DNA of 64,000 nt. It comes from Tubulanus polymorphus. Taxonomy: Eukaryota; Nemertea; Palaeonemertea; Tubulaniformes; Tubulanidae. Every line of letters starts with the position of its first letter. The stretch's first letter is position 1. The notes below the pieces were generated by a model. That model made no database searches. It was given only the letters and a program-made list of their open reading frames with translations, and was not told the DNA's origin. The stretch is taken from contig NC_134028.1 of assembly GCF_964204645.1 (NCBI RefSeq), forward strand, positions 7,047,001 to 7,111,000, in the 5' to 3' direction. Shown here piece by piece: positions 2,711-38,345 of this stretch. The position numbers were made by a program, and so were the translations under genes.

Positions 2711-3140
2711 GTATGTTGATTGTATGTTGGCTGACGTACGTAGAATTCATCCGACTATTGATTCACTCACCGACTCTAACATACAAAAACCGAATCGCTC
2801 GGGAATAAAATATCAGGGAAAAGTAACGGCTTTATATTTTACATTTCTTCATTCAGATTGCCAATTTTCATTAAGATTTAGCATTGTTTATGCACATACA
2901 CAGTTATTGAGCTCCTTTTCTATGAACAAATGTTGATTGTATGTCAGCTGACGTACAGCTGACGTGCACCTTACGCTATAAACTACTGTAACCAAATCCG
3001 AATCGAAATGAAATGTTAGGAAAAAGTAACGGCTTAACATGCTAGTTTTGTTTATTAAGAATGAAAATAATTTTCAAGATTTAGCATTGTTTGTGAATAT
3101 ACACAGTATTCGAATTGGAGTTCGTTGGTTTTGATTCATT
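2711..3140. repeat. Tandem duplication of about 220 bp around the 3' end of astacin copy 2
   Basis: Two units begin near 2711 and 2931 with TTGATTGTATGT and GCTGACGTAC. Both contain the reverse complement of a C-terminus HKQC-stop (stop at 2878-2880 in the first unit, 3081-3083 in the second) and an AGTAACGGCTT block. Only the second unit belongs to the intact gene; the first is a copied fragment of the last exon and 3' UTR. GCTGACGT half-palindromes recur in both. Confidence 0.65.
3051..3056 (-). other. Polyadenylation signal AATAAA for astacin copy 2
   Basis: AATAAA on the minus strand, about 25 bases beyond the stop codon at 3081-3083. The spacing implies a very short 3' UTR. Confidence 0.6.
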
Positions 3141-6100
3141 GTGGTAATAACATCTTTTATTTCCAATGTTGAAAGTTACTCCGGTGCACTCCTCGTCCAC
3201 AGAACAAATCTCTCCACACTGGTCAGCATTGAGAGCATTTCCGACTGCCATATCTGGGCCTATTTGTTGGGTATCCATTCGTTTTTCCATCTTACAATTC
3301 TTGGCTTCAAAGAAAAAAATCAACATATCAACAATATTATCACAGTTCATCATAATTTCATTACTTGCCGATTCTTTATTGAAATCTTTGACATTAAATC
3401 GCATGGCTGTCGTTTCGAAAGAGTTATACAATTTGGCAGACTTCAAAAACCTTACCGACTTCAATACCGATATAGTACCTGCGTTCAACTTCCTGAAGTA
3501 GCTGCAGCTGATATTGGCTACAACATCTTTCAGAACATTATGCAAGTTACAGCGCTTGTAAATTGTGTTGTAAGTTGCCGCGAGACAAGCATTTTCAGAC
3601 ATACAGGCTTCTTTACAAACTCCTTCATTATCAGCGTACATCCTTTTGTAGTCATCTCCTGGTTGTTGAGTATTTGCTGATTTAATCATTCCGATATCAT
3701 CTGCATTAAATATACGCATATCATTCATTGTTTATTAAGTGATTGCTGAAGATGAATCACGTGATTTGTATGGATATCATTGTCAGTTGAGTTGAAAATG
3801 ACATACAATTGGTAAGTTCTTTAACAGTTTGTTATTTTAGGATTTTTGGCTGAGATCGGCATCCATTTTTGGCAGAGAATTTATGATTTTCTACAGTATA
3901 CCTCCATATTTAAGATTAACCAAAACCAAAAAGTGGCTGTGCGTTTGTGACTATTGAATTGAATTTATTTTGCATTTCAAAATTACATTATGAAATAGAA
4001 AAATTTACAGGGTTCCGTGTGAATTTTTTACAATATAGAGCAATGATAACTAATACGTAGGTCTTTCAAATTTGAATACGTAATAAAATGTATAGAAGAT
4101 TAATTCTAACTAAGAATTTTTCCTTCCAAACTCAATTTAGATAGGGACCTAGTTCACATCAATCTACATAGAGCAAATTTTTCACCAACCTGAACCCAAC
4201 CTCTCCCCCAAACATTTTCAGCTATAAGATCTGCAATATGTAATCAACGCCAGGTGGAGTAAGGTTTTATATTTACCTACCCTTATCAGATTTGTACGGT
4301 TTACACTTATATAACATTCGAATTCTCTCGACGTCCATTGGTTGTAGCACTCCTGGCCCGAGAACCTCTCCTGCTGGTTTTGACGTCATCGTCGGTTTGC
4401 CATTTTTACTGAATGCATAAGCGTTATAGTGCATCAGGGAACGGTAGTTATACGGCATACCCTGAGTACTCGTCGAAGTCCATAATTCAAAATTAAACCA
4501 TTTGTCTGTAAAATTATCAGTTGAATTTCTAATCAAGATAAGTGAAAGCTGTGTACATGTTCTTCGTGATAGTTAACAATGTGTTGCTTCATGTGAGAAA
4601 ATCATTTCGGTACAAAGTGCTATTTCTTCTAATGCATGAACACTAAGAAAAATCACTAAGAGTATTCAATGACCCGTTTATTTTACTCTGACTAGAAGAG
4701 GGTTGAAATTTTATAAAAGCTATTTTGGCCTGGCCACAGCTTTTGGAACTTACTTGGGTAAATGTTGTCCCTGTTTATGGTGATGTGTTCATCGCGGTCG
4801 GGTGTGCCCTGTTCGTGGTGAAAACCCAACGCATGGATCACTTCGTGCATTACAGTATTCTTCGATACACAACCTGGTGAGTCTAGGGATAGCTTCTGAC
4901 CCCCGCGATAGGTCTGCATTCCAACGTAGGACCAACAGCTTAAAATGTTTAGAAAAATAACATTTGACATTGATGAAAATATTCTTCTCCATAGTGATTT
5001 TATCAGATGTAAGACAAGCCCACCCGTCTCCTTGGTGTATCTTCAAATAGTATTCTTCGTTCGCACGAGGTTTAAACCGTAGACAACCAGGACTGGCTTT
5101 GTTTACCATATACTGCAACCACTGTAATCCGTGTTCTATGATTGCTTCGTCTTTCGCAGCTGGATTTATATGAAATACAATCTATATGTTTTGGAAGTCC
5201 AAGGATTAGCTGTTAGCTGGAACAGTTTCAAACAAGAAAGAAGCACGCCAGAGACAGACTCATATCGTGAGGTTAATTTTTACGAAAATGCGGACCTTTT
5301 AAAACGGCGCTTGAAGGTGAAGACGTCTCGTTGTGACGGCTAATACGTTTGCAATTCTAGGCTTCCTATTGTAGTACGCTGCAAATCCTACATACCTGAA
5401 TGCCTAAAGTACCGGCGGTACATTGGACAAGCATAAGATTCCATTCAACTGCTAAAGGCCGAACTTTTCCTATTTTGGGCTGTTTGTCAAAACATCTCTA
5501 CCCGAACACCAACACACCACACGTGCGGACCGAAGACCTAAAACTTTTTGGCCTAGAGGTGAATGAGCTAAGAAAAGTAAATGCAACTTACAGTAGCCGG
5601 TCATGGTGTAGGGTACGGTGCCGTTAGTCCACTGTCTGTTTGTTACCGCGTTTCGGAACTAGAAATTGTCCCAGAATATCTGACTTAATTCATTAAGATA
5701 CCGATGTAGCAGGTTATAGTTTTATTCATCAGCTCATACGCGAGAATAGTCTATTCATACTTACACGGGGTAAAGCGATGTCACCTTGATATTTGCCTGT
5801 TCAGAATCAGATACAAAAATTGTACAATTCAATGGATGTTCTTACAGCGTCATAACAGATACATTTCGAATATTTACCTGAAGCCAAAACGTAATCTGGA
5901 AACAAAAAGATAACGGTACGTATAATGAATAACTTTCTATAGAAAAGATTTTTTCTGATCTGGAATATCACTTGAACCAGCTACCAACGCTAAAACTACA
6001 TTACATGAATAGTTCATTTCATATTTAAAGAAAATATTAACTGATTAATTACGTTTCAACTGATAGTTGTTGACGACGCTGGTCATAAATATACTTACCC

Positions 6101-6796
6101 ATATCAGTTAATATCCTCCCCTGAAAATATAAGTCCAATAAAATTTTAGAAAATTGATCCAAAACATCGAGCTCCGATTAGATATTGATGTAACAGGAAT
6201 TAGTAACAGCAGACGCGATAATAGTATGTACAGTCAATTTCGTGGTTTTTAACCCCCTTGCATAAAGATCTTGTTACTTAATTAACTCCCCACCCGTACG
6301 TACATTATGGAAGACCCTCTCAACCAACGAATTGCATAATATTATGCTTAATTTGTTGACCTTTCTATTGAAAAAAAAACGCCGTGATGGTCGCTAGAAT
6401 TTTATAGCGACGATGTTTCTATTATACAAAATCGTGTTAATCTTAGGATATTTAGAGTGGGGGTGATATCAGGATACTGTAATTTTATATCTTGTGTCAC
6501 TGCTTGGTGTCCACTAAGTAGGTATATTTTCTTATGAGACCCCCTTATCAGAAAAGAAAGTACCTTTTTCCGACCCCCTCCCCGTACGAAGTTAGTACAT
6601 TAACATTATTCGTTTACCACTCCCACCAAAACCGTATATACATACTATTTGAACGCTCCCTGTACGAACTGACGACAGATTTCGAAGACAGTCTCATTCA
6701 GGTTAGATCCCAATTTTACATCAAATACCTTCTTACCTGAACTGATAAAACACAGTATGTCGAACACAGTAAGCCGACGCTCACAAAAGCAGCCAT
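3081..6796 (-). CDS. Astacin-like metalloprotease with two PAN/Apple-like domains, copy 2 (complete)
   Basis: Secreted M12A zinc endopeptidase. Exons in transcript order: 6737-6796, 6099-6120, 5878-5895, 5765-5796, 5592-5658, 5024-5159, 4754-4938, 4281-4505, 3479-3700, 3081-3304. They sum to 1191 bases and give 396 residues without a stop. Residues 1-20 are a signal peptide (MAAFVSVGLLCSTYC). The propeptide carries GDI with the switch Asp39. The catalytic domain starts near FRNAV at 45. Zinc ligands are His143, His147 and His153 in HEVIHALGFHHEQ, with Glu144 as general base; the Met-turn SLMHY ends at Tyr200. Two cysteine-rich PAN/Apple-like repeats follow, about 249-322 and 323-396, each in its own exon, with the pattern CKEAC...C...CNLH. 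All introns are GT-AG. The intron between the PAN exons is 174 bases and stop-free. It is head to head with the gene at 8444. The second half could be another Cys-rich fold; PAN is inferred from cysteine spacing. Confidence 0.9.
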
Positions 6797-7785
6797 GATA
6801 AACGTTTGTTTGAAAGCATGCATTTCAGACGATTATTTATACTTCTTTGCATAAACATTTATGATCTCTTACTATATGTATAATCATCCATTATCACAAA
6901 TGTTTACGTATATACGCATCATAGCGATTACCCATTTGCTGATGTCCAGATAATCAGGTGTTTTTATGGCTCACACTCGCTGCCGGATCTATGGTTTATT
7001 GCGTGTTATCAGAAATTCACATTAACTTATTTGGTGTAAAAACGTGCGCTTGTTGATTCTATAACCCGCCCTCGTGCTCACCCAATGTTTATTAGGTTTT
7101 TATATTTCATGATTAGATAATATGTTTTTTATGATTGTTTCTATTTTTTACATTTTCCTGGCTTTATCGTACTTGGGTGTGTCGCATCTTTTCACGAAAT
7201 CAGAATAGAACCTGTATTGTGAATATAATGTTAATTGCGATTACTTTTCCAAATTGTCATTTACACATTAAACATATTACCATTTATCAATCAGTGTCAA
7301 GTCTTTTAACTCAAATGCGGCGCCGGTGACCAGGATATTATATTTCACAAATTACTTACCTTACCACATAGGATTGATTCTTCACATTTCTTCTGATTTT
7401 GTATGAAAAATCATGAACCTGAATATCATTGCACCTGATGACCACGAATGAACTTCCATTTCAGGAAATGTTTTTAAGTTATTGATTACCTGCTTGTAAT
7501 GATTAGAATATATGCCTTAAGTACGGCAGCCGAGCTGGACGGTAACTGCAGCAGTGAATCGTGCGACCATCTTTTTTGTAAATAGAAAATGTAAATTTAT
7601 AACATCTTCGGCCGATTGCAACTAATTTGTTTCGCTATCAGATATAGACCGAGGCGATAGTTTCGTGGAATGTACGTGACGAAACGGGGCATTTAAAATA
7701 TCCTCCGGGTTTTCCAGGCTGTTGGACGGTGCAAAAACTACTGTTGATACTATTTTGCTACACTGAATTCTTTATCTATTATTGT
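4690..7785. repeat. Segmental duplication, unit B
   Basis: Second copy of the block at 1-2705. It includes the astacin copy 2 exons from the zinc-site exon up to the signal exon and the region upstream of it. The upstream part (about 6960-7500) is copied again at 7850-8420. Confidence 0.8.
6834..6841 (-). promoter_or_regulatory. TATA box upstream of astacin copy 2
   Basis: TATAAATA on the minus strand, 38 bases upstream of the ATG at 6796, which implies a 5' UTR of only a few bases. In copy 1 the matching position, around 1653-1662, reads TATACGTA, so the box is degraded there. The assignment rests on position and motif only. Confidence 0.4.
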
Positions 7786-7794
7786 ATGTCGATT

Positions 7795-8443
7795 GTATGT
7801 TTTTGATCTTAAAATGAGAATTTACCCTGTTATTTATACTACTCCTTTTTGGTGTATACGTGCGCTTGTTAGCTCTATTACCCGCCATCGTCCCACCCAA
7901 CGTTTACATGGTTTTCGATGTTTCATGACTGGATTGTTTGTTTTGTTTACCGTTGTTTTTTTTCTGTTTTGCAGTTTCCTGGCTGAATCCTATGTGGGTG
8001 CGCGGCATTACTCAATCAAAATTAGAACAGAACATGTATTCTAAATGTTTGTTTATTACATTTACAAATCCGAATCTTCATTTGCATGGATAGCAAGTCT
8101 AACTTATTCTGCCTCAAATCCCGTGTATCGGTAGGTCTTATCCGAAGCAGGGACACCATGAATATTTGTAGAGCGTATTTGACGAACTACTAAACGAAAA
8201 TGGAGACCGGGATATTCCATTCTATAAATCACGTAATCACAAAAAAAATCGATTCTTCCTATCCTAATTTCGGATTCCAAACGTTGGATAAATCATAAAC
8301 CTGAAAGTCATTGCACCTGTTGACCACGAATGAACATCCAATTCAGGAAATGTTTGAAGATAAGACCTGATTGTGATGATTCAGAATATATGCCTTCAGT
8401 ACGGCGGCCGAGCTGGGCAGTAAAATAGACCTATATGGAAGAT
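7795..8443. repeat. Third copy of the astacin intergenic sequence (shared divergent promoter region)
   Basis: Sequence around 7850-8420 repeats 1850-2420 and 6960-7500, including the blocks TTTCCTGGCTGAATC and CACCTGTTGACCACGAATGA. The whole 6797-8443 interval lies between two divergent astacin starts and holds no other gene that I can see. Regulatory elements for both are expected here. Confidence 0.65.
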
Positions 8444-11399
8444 ATGGTTTCGCTGTTTGTTAGCGGGCTTTTGTTAATTTGTTCAGTCCAGGTAACAAAA
8501 ATAACTTTCGCATTATCTGAGCTGAGCTGCGCCGAAATCATGAAAATTATGGAGAGCGTCACAATATTTACCAATCGATGCACGTAGACGATAGGCTATC
8601 TGAACTTGACAGAAAAAAGATTCGGCTCAACCGAGGCCCGTTGTTCCATAAAATGATGTAAACTGATTTTAAGGTGAATGAAATGTTATCGTTTTCAGTT
8701 TCAGGCCAGGGCTGCGACTTATACAGGTAAAAACGTAAACTGTTTTTATTTAATATGGCTCGAGGATTTCAATTCATTAATATTGTATAAGCTATGATCT
8801 GGATCTTTTCTGGGCGTCTACGAATTTACATGGACAAATCACATGTTTTACATATATATTGCGGAATCTGCAGAAGACCTACGTAGGTATTTAAACTTAA
8901 ATGTCCATTTCAATTTTATTCAAGCTCGGTCCGAAGGAAGCATTGCAGGGAGCCAAAATGTAACGCGAAACGTAAGTATAGGTTCATTCCTACTTTCCAA
9001 AATATATCCACATACTTTAGGCGGGACATTGGTTTAAACGTGAATTGTGTAATCGAAGATTTTTGATTGCTGTTGTCGGAATATGAGTTTCACATTTTAG
9101 GTCAGAAATGCCGTAAATAGTAATCAGCGTTGGCCGCATGGAGTCGTACCTTACCTGTTAACAGGATTCAGTAAGTCACCGCCCACTTGTGAAATATCTA
9201 TTGAATATCTATCTGCACACACGGGAAAAGTTTCTTATGATGAAAACTGAATTGTTTTATCAAGGTGGGAATGAGCAGGCGAAAATAGAGCATGCGGTGC
9301 AAATGTTGAATTACTTGGTGAACAAAGGGAGATCGTATAGATCAGATTGCATTCGTTTCAAACCACGAACATCCCAAACTGACTACGTGAAAATACAAAA
9401 GGGAAAAGAGTGAGTTCCCAACTGACGTGAATAGTGAAACGAATGATCGGCTGGTTTTCACTCTTATTTCTTGAAACAATTCATACATACTTAATTATAC
9501 TGTATATAAACAATTACATGTATATAAACGTACCCATCTTTTTTTCTGATAGATGTAGTTCTTCAATTGGAAAGATCGGTGCCGTTCAGTCGGTTTCGCT
9601 GAATAGTGAATGCTTGGACAAAAATGGTGTGATCCGCGAATTGATTCACGTTCTTGGATTCGGTTATGAACAAAACAGACCGGATCGGGATCAGTTTGTA
9701 GCCGTCAACTGGGACAACGTCAAACCAGGTGAGCCTATAGTCGAAGCATCCTCACTATGTCTTAACTTCACGAATCCTCGCGATTTATTCGTGAAATTTC
9801 ATGCCGTGTTTTTTGTCATTACGCAGAGTATAAGGATAGTTTCAAGATAGAGGAGAAAAGTGTCACTTTAGGCGTACCCTACAACTACCGTTCGGTGATG
9901 CATCTCAATAGGTATCAATTCAGTAAAAATGGAAAACCGACGCTGACACCAAAACGAACGGGAGAACTGATGGGCGGCGGAGTACTGCAACCACTCGACG
10001 TTAAGAAGATTAGAATATTGTATAAATGCACCCCGTACGAACCGGAAACAGGTAAACCAGTAAGGCCATGCGAAGTGCTTTCCCCGGACCCACAGTAAAG
10101 CCCGCCGCACACGGCATAACATTCGTTTCACCGAAACAGAAAACACGTTTTCACACAACGCGAACGATAAAACGTTCAACGCATGAAATAACAAAACACA
10201 TCGAACCCGTTTTTGACGAGGAAAAAAACGTTTTTGTTCAGTGCCGCCTGCGACGGGCTTAATCGTCTCTTTCTGCGCAGAGTAACGCCAACCGTCCCCC
10301 TCCTCTCACAGCCAAAACTGTAAAACTGCGTCACACATTGAACCATCTCATGACATACTGATCCTTTTGGAATAATCAAGATTCATCATTAGGAGCGCAG
10401 ATCGCATGTTCTAGATGAACTGTTTTTTAGAATGCTGGGGTACGCGTTTGCCGATGCTGGGTCCATTTTTACGTATATCATCTTCAGCAAGTTCATTTTT
10501 CGGCGCTTAGTTGCTGTAGTGTTTTGATTATCGCGAATCCTCGTTAACATTTTCAGATATTTTCGGGATGAGGAAATCAGAATACAAACAACAAGCCGGT
10601 CCCGATATAAAGGGAATCCGAGCGTACGACGGAGGATCGTGTAAAGAGGCCTGCATGCGAAACCACCCGGCATGCGTTGCGTCAACTTTCAACGTGAAAA
10701 CTAAATCGTGTTACTTACATAGCGCTCTGCGAAAATTGAAATCCTCTAGCGATTGTATTTACTTCAAGAAATTCGACCATTCCAGTAAGTATAATGAATA
10801 AAAACATGTATATCAACTTGAGAACTGCCAGGATTGACAAACTGTCCGCAGGTATGACGATGGAGCGTCACGCAAGTAAGTCAAGGATGTAAACTCGATT
10901 TCCTAAAATATCTTTATTTTTTTCAAATTTACATCGGTCTATCTGTATACGACAGTAATTCGTTGTTTCTTCGCACGAAAATGTTAAGAAATAAAACCCG
11001 AATTCATATTGCAGGAAATGACATCTAAAAGCATCAATTTCTAAACATTTCCTGGCAGAGTCGAAGGGTTTACGCCAGTTCTAGGGTTCTGCAACAACGA
11101 ATTTCATCTAATGAAAAGTTCGACCCTTTCAAATCTTCTAGATGTCCCTGGGTGATTGATACTACGCATATCTAATTTCAGAATGCCAAATGACCGAACT
11201 TCGAAGTACTGGAGTGGCCGGAACGGTTTTGTACACATTGACTTTGGAAAGTGCCGGTATGTGCAGAGACAGTTGCCGCGTCGATGAAGAATGTCTAGAA
11301 GCAACTTATCGCACTGACTCGAGAAAATGTTTCTTCATGGCGAAATCCATTGCTAGATTCATAGATCAAAAACGAATACATTTCATAAAACAATGTTAG
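8444..11399 (+). CDS. Secreted astacin pseudoprotease with two PAN/Apple-like domains
   Basis: Exons: 8444-8491, 8705-8726, 8874-8882, 8925-8971, 9101-9170, 9265-9409, 9553-9728, 9827-10051, 10557-10784, 11182-11399. They sum to 1188 bases and give 395 residues with no stop. Signal peptide MVSLFVSGLLLICSVQ. The mature astacin domain starts near VRNAVNSNQRWPHG. The zinc motif reads RELIHVLGFGYEQNRPDRD: the first histidine is Arg142 and the third is Tyr152, with His146 and Glu143 kept. The Met-turn is SVMHL, so the tyrosine ligand is Leu199. The propeptide has EGSI where active copies have QGDI, so the switch aspartate is gone. The four catalytic-domain cysteines remain. Two PAN-like exons follow. 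Exon sizes largely match the active gene (22, 225 and 222/228 nt). The 9-nt exon 3 is the least certain: its phase fits, but a 13-nt alternative would break the frame. Known astacins with these losses would not bind catalytic zinc; a regulatory or binding role is inference. Confidence 0.87.
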
Positions 11400-11811: not shown

Positions 11812-12397
11812 TGGATGAAATGATTGACATTTCGCTATAGAATGGCTATTTTTGCGAAAAATCATCATGGCATTTTGGTGCGCCGACGAATACAATGAGC
11901 TAGGACTCCATCAAAGTGGAAACACTGGCTCTGACTCTTGGTTACACCTACGAGCAATTTAGAATATTTGCCCGCCAGATTACACCGGGACTCAATTGAC
12001 CCCGCTGACTACCTGACTAATAAACGAGGATGCACTGATTCGGGCCGCATGGCGTAGATCCAACGTACGGTGCTGCCAACATTCTCATTAATTTTGACAC
12101 CAGGTGGTGCATCGTTCGAAAATCAACCGGCGTCAACAGAAATTGATTTTCCTTATAGAGTGAGGAGTCCTTCTCTATATTTGAAATATTCCGGTAAGTA
12201 TTTGGTCGCTTGCCTTGAAGGGAGTGAGAGGTGCGGATCTGCACTTTTACCAAATTCTTTTTTCTCTAACTACGTTAGCATACGTCATAAGCCGGGCCTA
12301 AGCTTACGTACAATGTAATAGCATTTTATTTTCGATTGGCATCGATCTTTCTGGGATATTTCGTTTAATTTTTGGCGTACAAACCTCAAATACGTCT

Positions 12398-14106: not shown

Positions 14107-14260
14107 CCTTAGATGAGTATCTAACCTAACCTTTAACTTCATAGCGCCACGTGGACTAAACTGCTTGGTGAGACCCAGGAATCTAATTTTTCTCAATTTT
14201 CTTGCATCTTTTTTTTCGCAGGAAAGTTTCCTCATCTTTGAAAAGGAAAGAATCATTCGA

Positions 14261-15244
14261 ATGGCGTCTCCGGCCGGCGATTGGTGTCTGATCGAAAGCG
14301 ATCCGGGCGTTTTTACCGAATTGATCCGCGGTTTCGGCGTCAAAGGAATCCAAATCGAAGAACTGTGGAGCTTGGACACGGACAGTTTGAAAGCGTTGAA
14401 ACCGGTGCACGGTTTGATATTCCTGTTCAAATGGAAACAGGACGACGAAACGCAAGGCTCGGTCGTACGCGACAGTCGCCTCGATAAGATATTCTTCGCG
14501 AAGCAGGTCATCAACAACGCGTGCGCGACTCAGGCGATCCTGAGCGTGCTGTTGAACTGTCAACACAAGGACATCGAACTCGGCGAGACGCTCGGCCAGT
14601 TCAAAGAGTTCACGCAGTCGTTCGATCCGGCGACGAAGGGCCTGTCGATCAGCAACTCTGACGTCATTAAAAGCGTTCACAACAGCTTCGCGCGGCAGCA
14701 GATGTTCGAATTCGACCACAAAATGGCGACGAAAGACGACGACGTGTTTCATTTCGTCGGTTACTTGCCGATCGACGGACGGTTGTACGAGTTGGACGGA
14801 CTGAAAGACGGCCCGATCGATCTGGGTGCGGTCACCGACGGCGGCGACTGGCTCGATTTCATCAAACCGATCATCGAACAGCGCATTCAGCGGTACAACG
14901 CCGACGAAATCCATTTCAATTTGATGGCCGTCGTTTCCGACCGAACGATGATCTACCAACGACGCATCGACGAGTTATCGTCGGGCGGTCGCGCGGCGGA
15001 CGACGACAGCGCGATGGAAACGGACGCGGCGCACGCGGAAATCGAGCGGTACCGCGCGCTCATCGACGACGAGAAGCGAAAAACGCTGCGACACCGCAAC
15101 GAGAATATCCGTCGCCGGCACAACTATCTGCCGTTCATTATCGAACTGTTGAAAATTCTCGGCAAAGACGAAAAACTCGTGTCGCTCGTCGAAAAAGTGA
15201 AAGAAAGTCAGGAGAAGAAAAAACTCGAAAACGGCAACAAATAG
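14261..15244 (+). CDS. UCHL5: Ubiquitin C-terminal hydrolase L5 (UCH37), single coding exon
   Basis: Cysteine deubiquitinase that edits ubiquitin chains on the proteasome lid through RPN13 and also associates with INO80. 327 residues, against about 329 in vertebrates. The start is MASPAGDWCLIESDPGVF, which matches the family N-terminus. The catalytic set is present at the family positions: Gln82, Cys88 (NNACATQ), His164 (FHFVGY) and Asp179 (YELDG). The C-terminal ULD tail ENIRRRHNYLPF is present for RPN13 binding. No intron interrupts the coding region, whereas vertebrate orthologues have many. A strong acceptor (T-rich tract then CGCAG) ends at 14221, so a 5' UTR intron is likely and exon 2 would start at 14222. 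The coding sequence is much richer in GC at third positions than its surroundings. It could be an intron-poor ancestral locus or an expressed retrocopy; the frame is fully intact. Confidence 0.96.
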   Translation: MASPAGDWCLIESDPGVFTELIRGFGVKGIQIEELWSLDTDSLKALKPVHGLIFLFKWKQDDETQGSVVRDSRLDKIFFAKQVINNACATQAILSVLLNCQHKDIELGETLGQFKEFTQSFDPATKGLSISNSDVIKSVHNSFARQQMFEFDHKMATKDDDVFHFVGYLPIDGRLYELDGLKDGPIDLGAVTDGGDWLDFIKPIIEQRIQRYNADEIHFNLMAVVSDRTMIYQRRIDELSSGGRAADDDSAMETDAAHAEIERYRALIDDEKRKTLRHRNENIRRRHNYLPFIIELLKILGKDEKLVSLVEKVKESQEKKKLENGNK

Positions 15245-16759: not shown

Positions 16760-19700
16760 CTAAATCGTCGTTCCGATCGAGCTGAGGTGGTGATGGTGTT
16801 GATAAGACTGGCCGTGGCTCGTGCTCGGCGCGAAGTCCAGGTCCCGTTCTTTGATCACGTCCCGTTGCAAAATCAAATCGACCTTGTGCTCCAAACCGGG
16901 AATGAGTCGAATCATGTCTTCCACGTCGGCGTGACGTCGCAAATACAGAGATATCTGGCACATGGCGGCTATTTGACTGCATACGTACGCGGAACCGCAA
17001 AACATAAACGACCAACCGTACTCGTACGAAAACATCGGGGGATTGTCGCCCTTAGCGGGCGGCACGTGGTTCATTTCATCGTTTAGAGTACTGATATATA
17101 GTATAATCCCGAGAGCCAGTATCATTCCTGAAATTAGAAATTAATGAATTATGCAATGGAGATATGTAGGCTGAATAATGACCAGTTTTATGACGTTCGG
17201 CAGTGGAAGCTATTTGCCAATGAAGCACCGCCGCGTTCAGAGCTTCCGTGGGTTGAGCATGTTTTTATCGCGACTATCGTAGAAGTGGATTTAGCAGAGA
17301 TAGATAAAGGCATATCTCGGATAAGGTGGGTCTTTCCCTCGGTTTCAGATATTTTAGAAGAAATAAACCCAAAAAGATGCAATTTCGTGAGGTTGAGCGT
17401 CAAATTTATGGGTTTTCGCGACTTCTGCCTTGACGAAAATCACAAACTCGATTGGAATGCAGGGGTCTGGACCCCGAGACCACCCCTTAACCAGCCTTCG
17501 TTATTCCACAGTGTTACCGGCACGCCGAAACCCGAGGCGCCCGTTGAAAAACCGACAGTTAATATGAATGAGAACTCAGAACGCCTGGTGCATTCCCCAT
17601 GACTACATTGCTAGATTATTCCTGGTTAAAAATCAATTCCTTAAATCCAAGATTGATTTGACCCGTTCTCGCTAATCCTTCCCGCCGGAAACGAAAAAGC
17701 CGATGTATTTTTTTGTTGTCGACCGCATAGTGACATTTTGTTCAGTGAAGCGATCTTGATTCTGTGATGTTCTCCACGTTACCGAGGCAAGTGATGATGA
17801 ATTTTGTGCGAGATAAAAGAAAGTAGCAATTATTATTGGTTATCTGTCAACTGAACATGATAGAGAACTTGCGTTTAGCGGGTGTCTGGTGTCAGCAATG
17901 CACATACATCAGCCTGTAGCTTCTGGTATAGTCTTCAGAAATGTCGACAGAGGAGTTTACTTACTTCTGGAATACATCGTGTTATATCTACAATTTCTAC
18001 ATGTTTTTTCGTTGCATCCGTGTCTATACCCCACGAAATGACGCGAATGAACGGGGTCCGTTATATACATATATGGATTTCCGACTGAAAACGGCTTTAT
18101 ATGGATTTAATCGAACTACAGTGGACTCCCCTCAAGTCGGATCCTATCAACTCGGATGTTTTTTCAAATATTTTATGTGAAACTATACACGAAATACATA
18201 ACATCCAACTCTGATATCACTCTAAGGTCCGACGCGGCGTCTAGTGTATTTCGATTCGTTTCAGGAATCAGTAAAGGCCCTGTGGTTAGAAATAGGTTAA
18301 TCCAAATGATAAGTCGTATACGTGTAGCCTTAGGGACAAGAATAGATGAGAGACATCGTCGAAAAACTGTGGTCTAGCCAAATATAGCTTCATTTTTGCA
18401 TTGATAACACTCTCAAAGACCTTTGGCATAAAGCTGGATTTAATACCCGGCGAGTAAAGCGAAATGATAAGCCTCTTATTTATGTGCAGCACTCGACTTG
18501 CAGATGTAAAAAAACGCACGATAAACGGAACGAATCGTCTGTCCGAATAGTCCCGCAACAACGAAACAGGTTTCAGAACCGAACAGATTTCCCAAGCGGG
18601 CCAAATGCTAATACATCGGAATTCACGAGCGTCTGGGAGTTTGAAAGAAGTGATTTTGATAACGAGGGATAATTTTATTACCGCTAACGTTTGCAGTATC
18701 TAGTTTTATACCGCGGAGAAAACTCTTCAGCCGAATACGTCATCCGTGTCTTCTTATGCGGCCTCATCTTTCAGTAACATTATTCCAAAAAGGGGGAAGT
18801 GCATGCCCGCGGTTCCTTGCCGAGTTTTTTATTCCGCTTGTGGCAGAATCTTCTATTGAGAGTTCTCCACCCGAATGACTAGCTTCGAGTCGTGATGGAC
18901 AGGGTTTTTCTTTCAGTCGTAGTTCTCTGGTTCAAACGCTTAAAACATGATAAATTATGCATCCGAAAATCCATTTAAGATATGCTCAATGGCTTTACAT
19001 CAAAAGAACTAGGGGGGGGGCTAGGTACCGGTAAATAAAGTACTAAGGTTGAGTACGTGAAGCCTATATACCCGGTGGATTAACAAGATCGTTTAGGAAT
19101 CTAAATGTTATAAGGATTAGGATTTTAAACTAAATACAATATTGGTTTGGGAGCCAGTGAAGGCCATGAAGAATTAGCGTGATTTGACAGAATCTGGATT
19201 TGCGAGTTGATACAACACGAACAGAATAGCTTTCCCTGTTTTTTGGCTGGTAGTTTTTCATAATCTGATTCGAGCCAGCGGAATAAAAAAGTGACCCGCA
19301 CTATGACCTTGACCATATACTAACCGGAAGTGATGTAAATGACGGCTGCTACGATGGTCTTCATATCTTTTTTTAGGTATCCACAAGCGCTGACAATGAA
19401 TCCAATTACTAGCAGCACTAAACTGAAACCAGGCATCGGGGCTATCGACTGGAATGCGACTGAAATGCGGAAAAATATATCATAATGTCAAATACCCATC
19501 GAAAATACACGTCTGCAGCTGGTACATTATTCATTCAACTTATGCCGCGGTAATGAAATAAGCAAGCAGATTTTCATTTTCTCTAACTGTTAATCAACGG
19601 ACGAAGCAATTTTCGAAGCGTTTTCGGCAAAAAAAATATATATATAACATATTAATGTTTGTTTTAGTCTTAGCGAATATCGACATAAAGAATATAGTAG

Positions 19701-37702: not shown

Positions 37703-37733
37703 GTTTTTTTAGGACGCTCTCCAACAGTTGAAA

Positions 37734-38345
37734 ATGCAGGACAACAAACAATATCCGCCTCAACAATACCCACCTCAACAGGGCCAGCCAGCAGTTCAGT
37801 ACACTGCACCACCGCCGGGGTACCAACCGGGTCAACCAGGAGCTCAGCCCCCGGTTTACATAGCAACCACGTACCAGCCGACTCAGTTACTCAACCCAGG
37901 GTTCAAAGCCAAACGTGAATTAGGATGTGGTATCACATTAACTGTATTCGGCTGTCTATATTTGATCAATGGTTTCGTAGAAATGTCGAAGGGCAGATCG
38001 AAATTCTACCAAGGATTTTGGGGTGGAGCCCTTTTCCTCGTCACTGGAGTTATGGGCATTATGGCCGGCAAAACCCGCAAAAATGGATATATGATTGCGT
38101 CGATAGTATTGTGCGTGATATCTGCAATCTTAAGTTTTGTTTGTTTCGCCATTCTGCTTTTTGCTGCCGTGGTTCTCATGAATGGCGGCCATTTGTTTGC
38201 TATGTTTGGTATTTTGACCATCATAAACGCCATTGTTGCGTTGGTAGTTTTCATCATCGCCATTGTTCAGGCCGCTACTTGCTGTAAATGTTGTTACGGA
38301 CCGGAAGCCCAACAAGCCGCTCCTGTTTCGAATGCTGCTGTCTAG
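37734..38345 (+). CDS. MS4A/CD20-like four-pass membrane protein
   Basis: 203 residues in one coding exon. The true start is the ATG at 37734 (MQDNKQYPPQQYPPQ); it follows an acceptor, TTCTTTTTTTCTCAG, ending at 37702, so an upstream non-coding exon exists. The N-terminal 45 residues are Pro/Gln/Tyr-rich and cytosolic. Four hydrophobic segments follow: CGITLTVFGCLYLINGF, FWGGALFLVTGVMGIMAG, ASIVLCVISAILSFVCFAI and AMFGILTIINAIVALVVF. The FWGG...TG...I block after the first loop is typical of MS4A proteins. A CCKCCYG cluster after TM4 is a likely palmitoylation site. The tail is short. MS4A proteins act in membrane signalling or ion conduction; no specific role can be read here. The alternative is another Pro-rich four-TM family of similar fold. 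Confidence 0.8.
   Translation: MQDNKQYPPQQYPPQQGQPAVQYTAPPPGYQPGQPGAQPPVYIATTYQPTQLLNPGFKAKRELGCGITLTVFGCLYLINGFVEMSKGRSKFYQGFWGGALFLVTGVMGIMAGKTRKNGYMIASIVLCVISAILSFVCFAILLFAAVVLMNGGHLFAMFGILTIINAIVALVVFIIAIVQAATCCKCCYGPEAQQAAPVSNAAV

Follow-up and report, generated by a model that had tools for sequence, protein, structure and literature searches.

A secreted astacin–PAN gene of Tubulanus polymorphus that lacks its zinc site and is probably retained as a pseudoprotease

Introduction

Is an astacin gene that has lost its zinc site on its way out of the genome, or can it be kept for work other than cutting? The question is raised by P6, an astacin–PAN gene of Tubulanus polymorphus that adjoins five related genes with intact catalytic motifs. 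Non-peptidase homologues have a class of their own in MEROPS. Pseudoproteases in general are common, and in Drosophila 180 pseudopeptidase genes are grouped in the accessible part of one study (PMC12869072). In the portion available of a review of inactive metallopeptidases, the named metzincin cases are the ADAMs, the word “astacin” is used once, and no astacin is among the table rows shown (PMC11266112). The zinc motif is kept in all eight labial-gland astacins of the salmon louse (PMC10828956, in excerpt), and the accessible sections of a paper on the astacins of C. elegans describe no naturally zinc-less member (PMC2824743). We found no described astacin pseudoprotease in the literature searched, which consisted mostly of papers outside subscription, and we do not claim that none is in print. 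Where an intact zinc-less astacin adjoins active paralogues and the genome has another zinc-less lineage, loss of activity could be studied with built-in active controls, and P6 and its neighbors would put to the test the idea that astacin arrays encode their own regulators. Here, we analyze P6 within a stretch of 64,000 nucleotides (the window; C4:7047001–7111000 of a 267.8-Mb genome) and compare it with other astacin loci of that genome.

Results

P6 spans exactly positions 8444–11399 of the window on the + strand, from an ATG at 8444 to a TAG that ends at 11399. Its ten exons, with AG/GT borders throughout, join into a single frame of 402 codons plus stop, which bears out with exact coordinates the earlier note's proposal of ten exons encoding one open frame with a signal peptide. 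Exon 1 (8444–8491), placed by frame joining and by comparison of exon copies, encodes the signal peptide MVSLFVSGLLLICSVQ; exon 2 (8699–8726) was placed by frame joining, and exon 3 (8925–8971) encodes the prodomain. The astacin domain begins in exon 4 (9101–9170) and continues through exon 5 (9265–9409), exon 6, hereafter the zinc exon (9553–9728), and exon 7 (9827–10051). Exon 8 (10557–10784) encodes a first PAN-like domain, exon 9 (10852–10875, placed by frame joining) a linker, and exon 10 (11182–11399) a second PAN domain and the stop. A candidate short exon near 8874 was rejected, as exons 2 and 3 already join in frame. The predicted product thus consists of a signal peptide, a short prodomain, an astacin domain, and two PAN-like domains. 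Residues 51–240 match the Pfam Astacin profile (PF01400) over its entire length (1–189 of 189) with 146.5 bits against a cut-off of 22.5. The four structural cysteines of astacins, which the same note had listed as kept, are present (C93 in exon 5, C114, C134, and C239 in exon 7). Both PAN-like domains that it described are in place, the first (residues 261–300; PAN_4, 21.4 bits) below the Pfam cut-off of 27 and the second (residues 338–389; PAN_1, 38.8 bits) above that of 21.4. The ten exons contain no stop, frameshift, or lost splice site. Third-position GC is 0.455 in P6 and 0.45–0.47 in the neighboring genes, and introns have a GC content of 0.38. On the + strand, no AATAAA occurs within 600 bases past the P6 stop, the next lying at 12019; the window holds 119 such hexamers, as expected by chance (mean 122). 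The promoter and terminator scan of the window was of bacterial type and is uninformative for P6.

By descent, as read from its sequence, P6 is an astacin. It matches 17 distinct solved sequences, comprising astacins, hatching enzymes, meprins, and BMP1/tolloid. It shares with crayfish astacin (family M12A; PDB 1ast, 3lq0, 6ht9) the full-length profile match, the four cysteines, ExxRxDRD, the methionine of the Met-turn, the signal peptide, and the prodomain; unlike crayfish astacin, it lacks two zinc histidines, the Met-turn tyrosine, and the prodomain aspartate. Residues were mapped by alignment to the crayfish protein, with positions counted by hand; the roles of positions 92, 93, 96, 102, and 149 are established. 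The first zinc histidine (position 92) is R141 in P6 and the third (102) is Y151, whereas the catalytic glutamate (93; E142) and the second zinc histidine (96; H145) are kept, so that in place of HExxHxxGFxHE the zinc exon reads RELIHVLGFGYE (9635–9670). The tyrosine ligand of the Met-turn (149; SxMHY) is L198, giving SVMHL (9892–9906, exon 7). These alignments agree with the substitutions first read from the letters alone, to Arg and Tyr in the zinc motif and to Leu in the Met-turn. The motif FXGDI is common to the prodomains of animal astacins, and its aspartate serves as a zinc ligand in the zymogen (PMC9848320, in the part available). At this place P6 reads SEGSI (EGSI at 8933–8944), with serine for aspartate, against YQGDI or YEGDI in the array. 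Loss of the aspartate had been claimed correctly; the accompanying statement that the neighbors read QGDI is true of four of the five, A1 having EGDI. By three features of its sequence, then, namely zinc motif, tyrosine ligand, and aspartate switch, P6 is predicted not to be an active astacin: it has an open frame with catalytic residues lost, and is a genuine, intact, and very probably noncatalytic gene.

The five astacin–PAN genes that adjoin P6 (A1–A5, at approximately C4:7.031–7.054 Mb) lie on the opposite (−) strand. Two of them reach into the window: A4 (1–1644) crosses its left edge, and A5 (3081–6823), modeled without one short exon, has the zinc motif, the Met-turn tyrosine, and QGDI intact. 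A5 and P6 stand head to head, and the spacer between their start codons (6824–8443) is related, by blastn matches, to the spacers inside the array. All five array genes carry HExxHxxGFxHE and SLMHY. Their models are partial, comprising a signal exon, a prodomain exon, and exons 4–8 and 10; a short exon that would lie between signal and prodomain was not found in them. P6 and the array have the same domain order, their exons match from the astacin domain onward, and the array genes are its nearest relatives, but they have an intact catalytic site and prodomain motif and 49–53% identity to P6 in the astacin domain. A genome-wide search with P6 gave, after its own exons, array exons as the best matches. 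In a tree built from exons 6 and 7 of 13 sequences, which include just four other active astacins, P6 and the array group together with an ultrafast bootstrap of 95, and again of 95 when the catalytic columns are removed. Within the array, exon 8 of A3 (the first PAN exon; C4:7041287–7041488) bears a frameshift, and fragments of PAN sequence lie between A1 and A2 (C4:7035088–7035515).

The 48-nucleotide first exon of P6 has three orphan copies in the array spacers, all on the + strand and divergent before A2, A3, and A4. The copy at C4:7040235 (80% identity over 51 nucleotides) has lost its ATG, that at C4:7044909 (88% over 51 nucleotides) is open, and that at positions 2453–2500 of the window (76% over 51 nucleotides) has two stops and no GT donor; two of the three are therefore broken, and P6's own exon 1 is open. 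The spacers around these copies resemble that between A5 and P6. These sequences are most simply read as repeated duplication of a unit made up of array gene, spacer, and P6-type first exon, in which case the head-to-head pair would predate the array's expansion. That P6 is controlled jointly with the array is an inference from this arrangement only.

How long could a gene such as P6 have stayed whole by chance? In its frame, 4.6% of random point changes give a stop. With start and splice sites also counted, the chance of remaining intact without indels is 0.387 at 1%, 0.15 at 2%, and 0.009 at 5% neutral divergence, and with one indel per ten substitutions it is 0.116, 0.013, and 2e-5, respectively. 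If the codons of the two histidines, the tyrosine, and the prodomain aspartate are assumed to have begun as in the array, the four P6 codons require at least six nucleotide changes (counted by hand), and five of these must postdate the first loss. Under neutrality, an intact P6 together with at least five hits in these 12 nucleotides has a probability no higher than 3.4e-6 (7.5e-8 if indels are allowed). When just the three zinc-ligand codons are considered, with at least three further hits in 9 nucleotides, the values are 1.5e-4 and 1.5e-5. Such low joint chances imply that P6 probably was kept open long after the first loss, or that the site changed under selection while some function lasted, and simple decay appears unlikely on these sequence-based estimates.

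The dead domain of P6 is better conserved than its PAN domains. Amino acid identity to the array, 49–53% in the former, is 34–40% over the two PAN exons (A1, A2, A4, and A5) and 27% for A3, in which a single PAN exon was compared. Differences from A5 at codon positions 1, 2, and 3 number 70, 43, and 115 in the astacin domain (192 codons) and 62, 64, and 84 in the PAN domains (143 codons), where the near-equal counts at positions 1 and 2 speak against retention; the frameshifted exon 8 of A3 was excluded from codon counts, and A3 as a whole from the comparisons of codon positions and of exon 7 rates. In the astacin domain, dN between P6 and the array is 0.36–0.40, and dS is 2.36 in one of the five comparisons and saturated in the others; because synonymous sites are saturated, we claim no pairwise dN/dS ratio. 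The zinc exon of P6 was also compared with 40 active rows (A1–A5 and 35 of 89 further loci, which passed filters for motif score, length, and CxS). Of 24 columns with a conservation of 80% or more in these rows, P6 retains 19; the motif columns are conserved by construction because active rows were picked by motif score. The five changed columns are the two zinc histidines, two V/I swaps, and one glycine replaced by glutamate. With the histidine columns set aside, P6 averages 7.3–9.7 unique residues in this exon, compared with 3.3–5.6 for the array genes (35 outgroups), a roughly twofold faster change of the zinc exon in P6. In exon 7, by contrast, the rates are about even (16 comparisons). 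With the catalytic columns removed, branch length is 0.54 for P6, and the stem and tips of the array add up to 0.38. A fast zinc exon together with an even exon 7 suggests that constraint loosened around the lost site and not domain-wide, although the P6 branch includes an active period, so that this constraint cannot be dated to after the loss.

Selection after inactivation can be followed in a second zinc-less lineage. The 89 further astacin loci were picked by eye among those listed of 161 matches, include some near-identical copies, and are not all the astacins of the genome. HExxHxxGxxHE is whole in one exon in 73 of them; in 11, an apparent exon edge follows HExxHxxG, which leaves the third histidine unread, and one (L087) is unreadable. 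The remaining four (L074, L076, L092, and L094) lack a zinc histidine, and against this background the altered motif of P6 is more than chance. Three of these, L076, L092, and L094, read QQLLxVLGMKxEH and belong to genes with MAM-like exons, L104 (C6:10557001–10566500), L105 (C1:24053001–24062500), and L106 (C1:24070001–24079500), which are known from exons and not as full gene models. Their Met-turn is SLLHY or SLLHF, and the MAM-like exons score 24.5 and 17.8 bits, both under the Pfam cut-off of 26.4. Like P6, this QQLL lineage lacks zinc histidines in open exons; unlike P6, it also lacks the catalytic glutamate and has MAM-like exons instead of PAN domains. It branches apart from P6 in the 13-sequence tree, which points to loss of the zinc site at least twice. 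L105 and L106 are a young pair: over the 188 codons of the dead domain, dN is 0.011–0.013 and dS 0.080–0.103 by three methods (dN/dS 0.11–0.15), with 6, 0, and 11 differences at codon positions 1, 2, and 3, which are small counts; with the MAM-like exons included, dN/dS is 0.16–0.20. Between this pair and L104, synonymous sites of the astacin domain are saturated. Because QQLL is common to all three copies, the pair very likely split after the loss, and their low ratios would reflect selection after inactivation. By analogy, retention of a zinc-less astacin in this genome becomes credible, without being proven for P6. The fourth locus, L074 (C8:7633889–7634313), is an astacin zinc exon with glutamine in place of the third histidine. 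L083 (C10:3313571–3313923), among the 11 loci cut by an exon edge, reads HQxxH, with glutamine at the position of the catalytic glutamate.

Discussion

The present analysis suggests that P6 encodes a secreted astacin–PAN pseudoprotease that has been retained, which we regard as probable and as the best explanation of the data as a whole. Loss of both active site and inhibitory switch in an otherwise preserved scaffold had been taken in the earlier note as pointing to a role as decoy, inhibitor, or ligand-binding protein; the losses and the intact, constrained scaffold hold, noncatalytic retention is the likeliest reading of the sequence, and the three roles are indistinguishable from one another. 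Given that P6 is whole and that its neighboring relatives appear to be functional, it has probably not decayed but kept a role in binding or regulation. Its protein would be unable to hold the catalytic zinc and hence to cut, and the switch aspartate, no longer needed for latency, would have been free to change. ADAM pseudopeptidases (M12: ADAM2, 7, 11, 22, 23, and UNC-71) are metzincins with binding roles whose pattern P6 resembles: their zinc and base residues are substituted and the Met-turn is kept (PMC11266112, available portion). However, they belong to another subfamily and have disintegrin domains and usually a membrane anchor, whereas P6 is a secreted astacin with PAN domains. More tentatively, and at somewhat less than even chances, P6 may be a binder that does not cleave, with substrate, matrix, or partner surfaces in common with the array enzymes, which it would tune as a decoy, a competitor, or a partner. 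A broader proposal, that the array carries its own antagonist in the zinc-less paralogue placed head to head with it, across a spacer like those recurring among the active genes, with enzyme and non-cutting counterpart made together, and that retained pseudoproteases arose at least twice (with PAN and with MAM-like domains), is doubtful.

These readings must be weighed against the possibility that P6 is a pseudogene on its way out, its function having ended with its site and its frame being open because little time has passed. The faster change of the zinc exon, the absence of an AATAAA soon after the stop, and the broken pieces nearby (the A3 frameshift, the PAN fragments between A1 and A2, and two of the orphan exons) would fit such decay. 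However, ten exons without a stop, frameshift, or lost splice site would have to be explained, exon 7 is no faster than in the array, and the chance of remaining intact, 0.15 at 2% and 0.009 at 5% divergence, leaves too short a span for the five additional changes in four functional codons; we therefore consider recent decay quite unlikely. Somewhat less unlikely, though still improbable, is that function resides in the PAN domains, with the dead astacin domain serving as a passive spacer. PAN domains are established binding modules, and both of those in P6 retain their place and cysteines. There is also a proposed precedent in some sperm ADAMs whose metalloprotease domain is cut off (PMC11266112, available portion). 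In P6, however, it is the astacin domain that is closer to the array than the PAN domains are, and that has fewer differences at the first two codon positions. Finally, P6 retains a glutamate at the catalytic position and the middle histidine, and could in principle be a peptidase that uses another metal site or mechanism; with two of three zinc histidines and the Met-turn tyrosine gone, and no other metal site seen in the sequence, this is very improbable. Retention of P6 as a noncatalytic protein thus remains the preferred reading.

Elsewhere, the window holds a single open frame for a UCH-family deubiquitinase with a UCH_C domain (14117–15244, + strand; 225.9 and 57.7 bits), which is perhaps a retrocopy. 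A weak claudin-like match (16763–17140, − strand) scores 18.5 bits, below the cut-off of 29.1, and a frame for a CD20-like membrane protein (37713–38345, + strand) scores 29.8 bits against a cut-off of 27.9.
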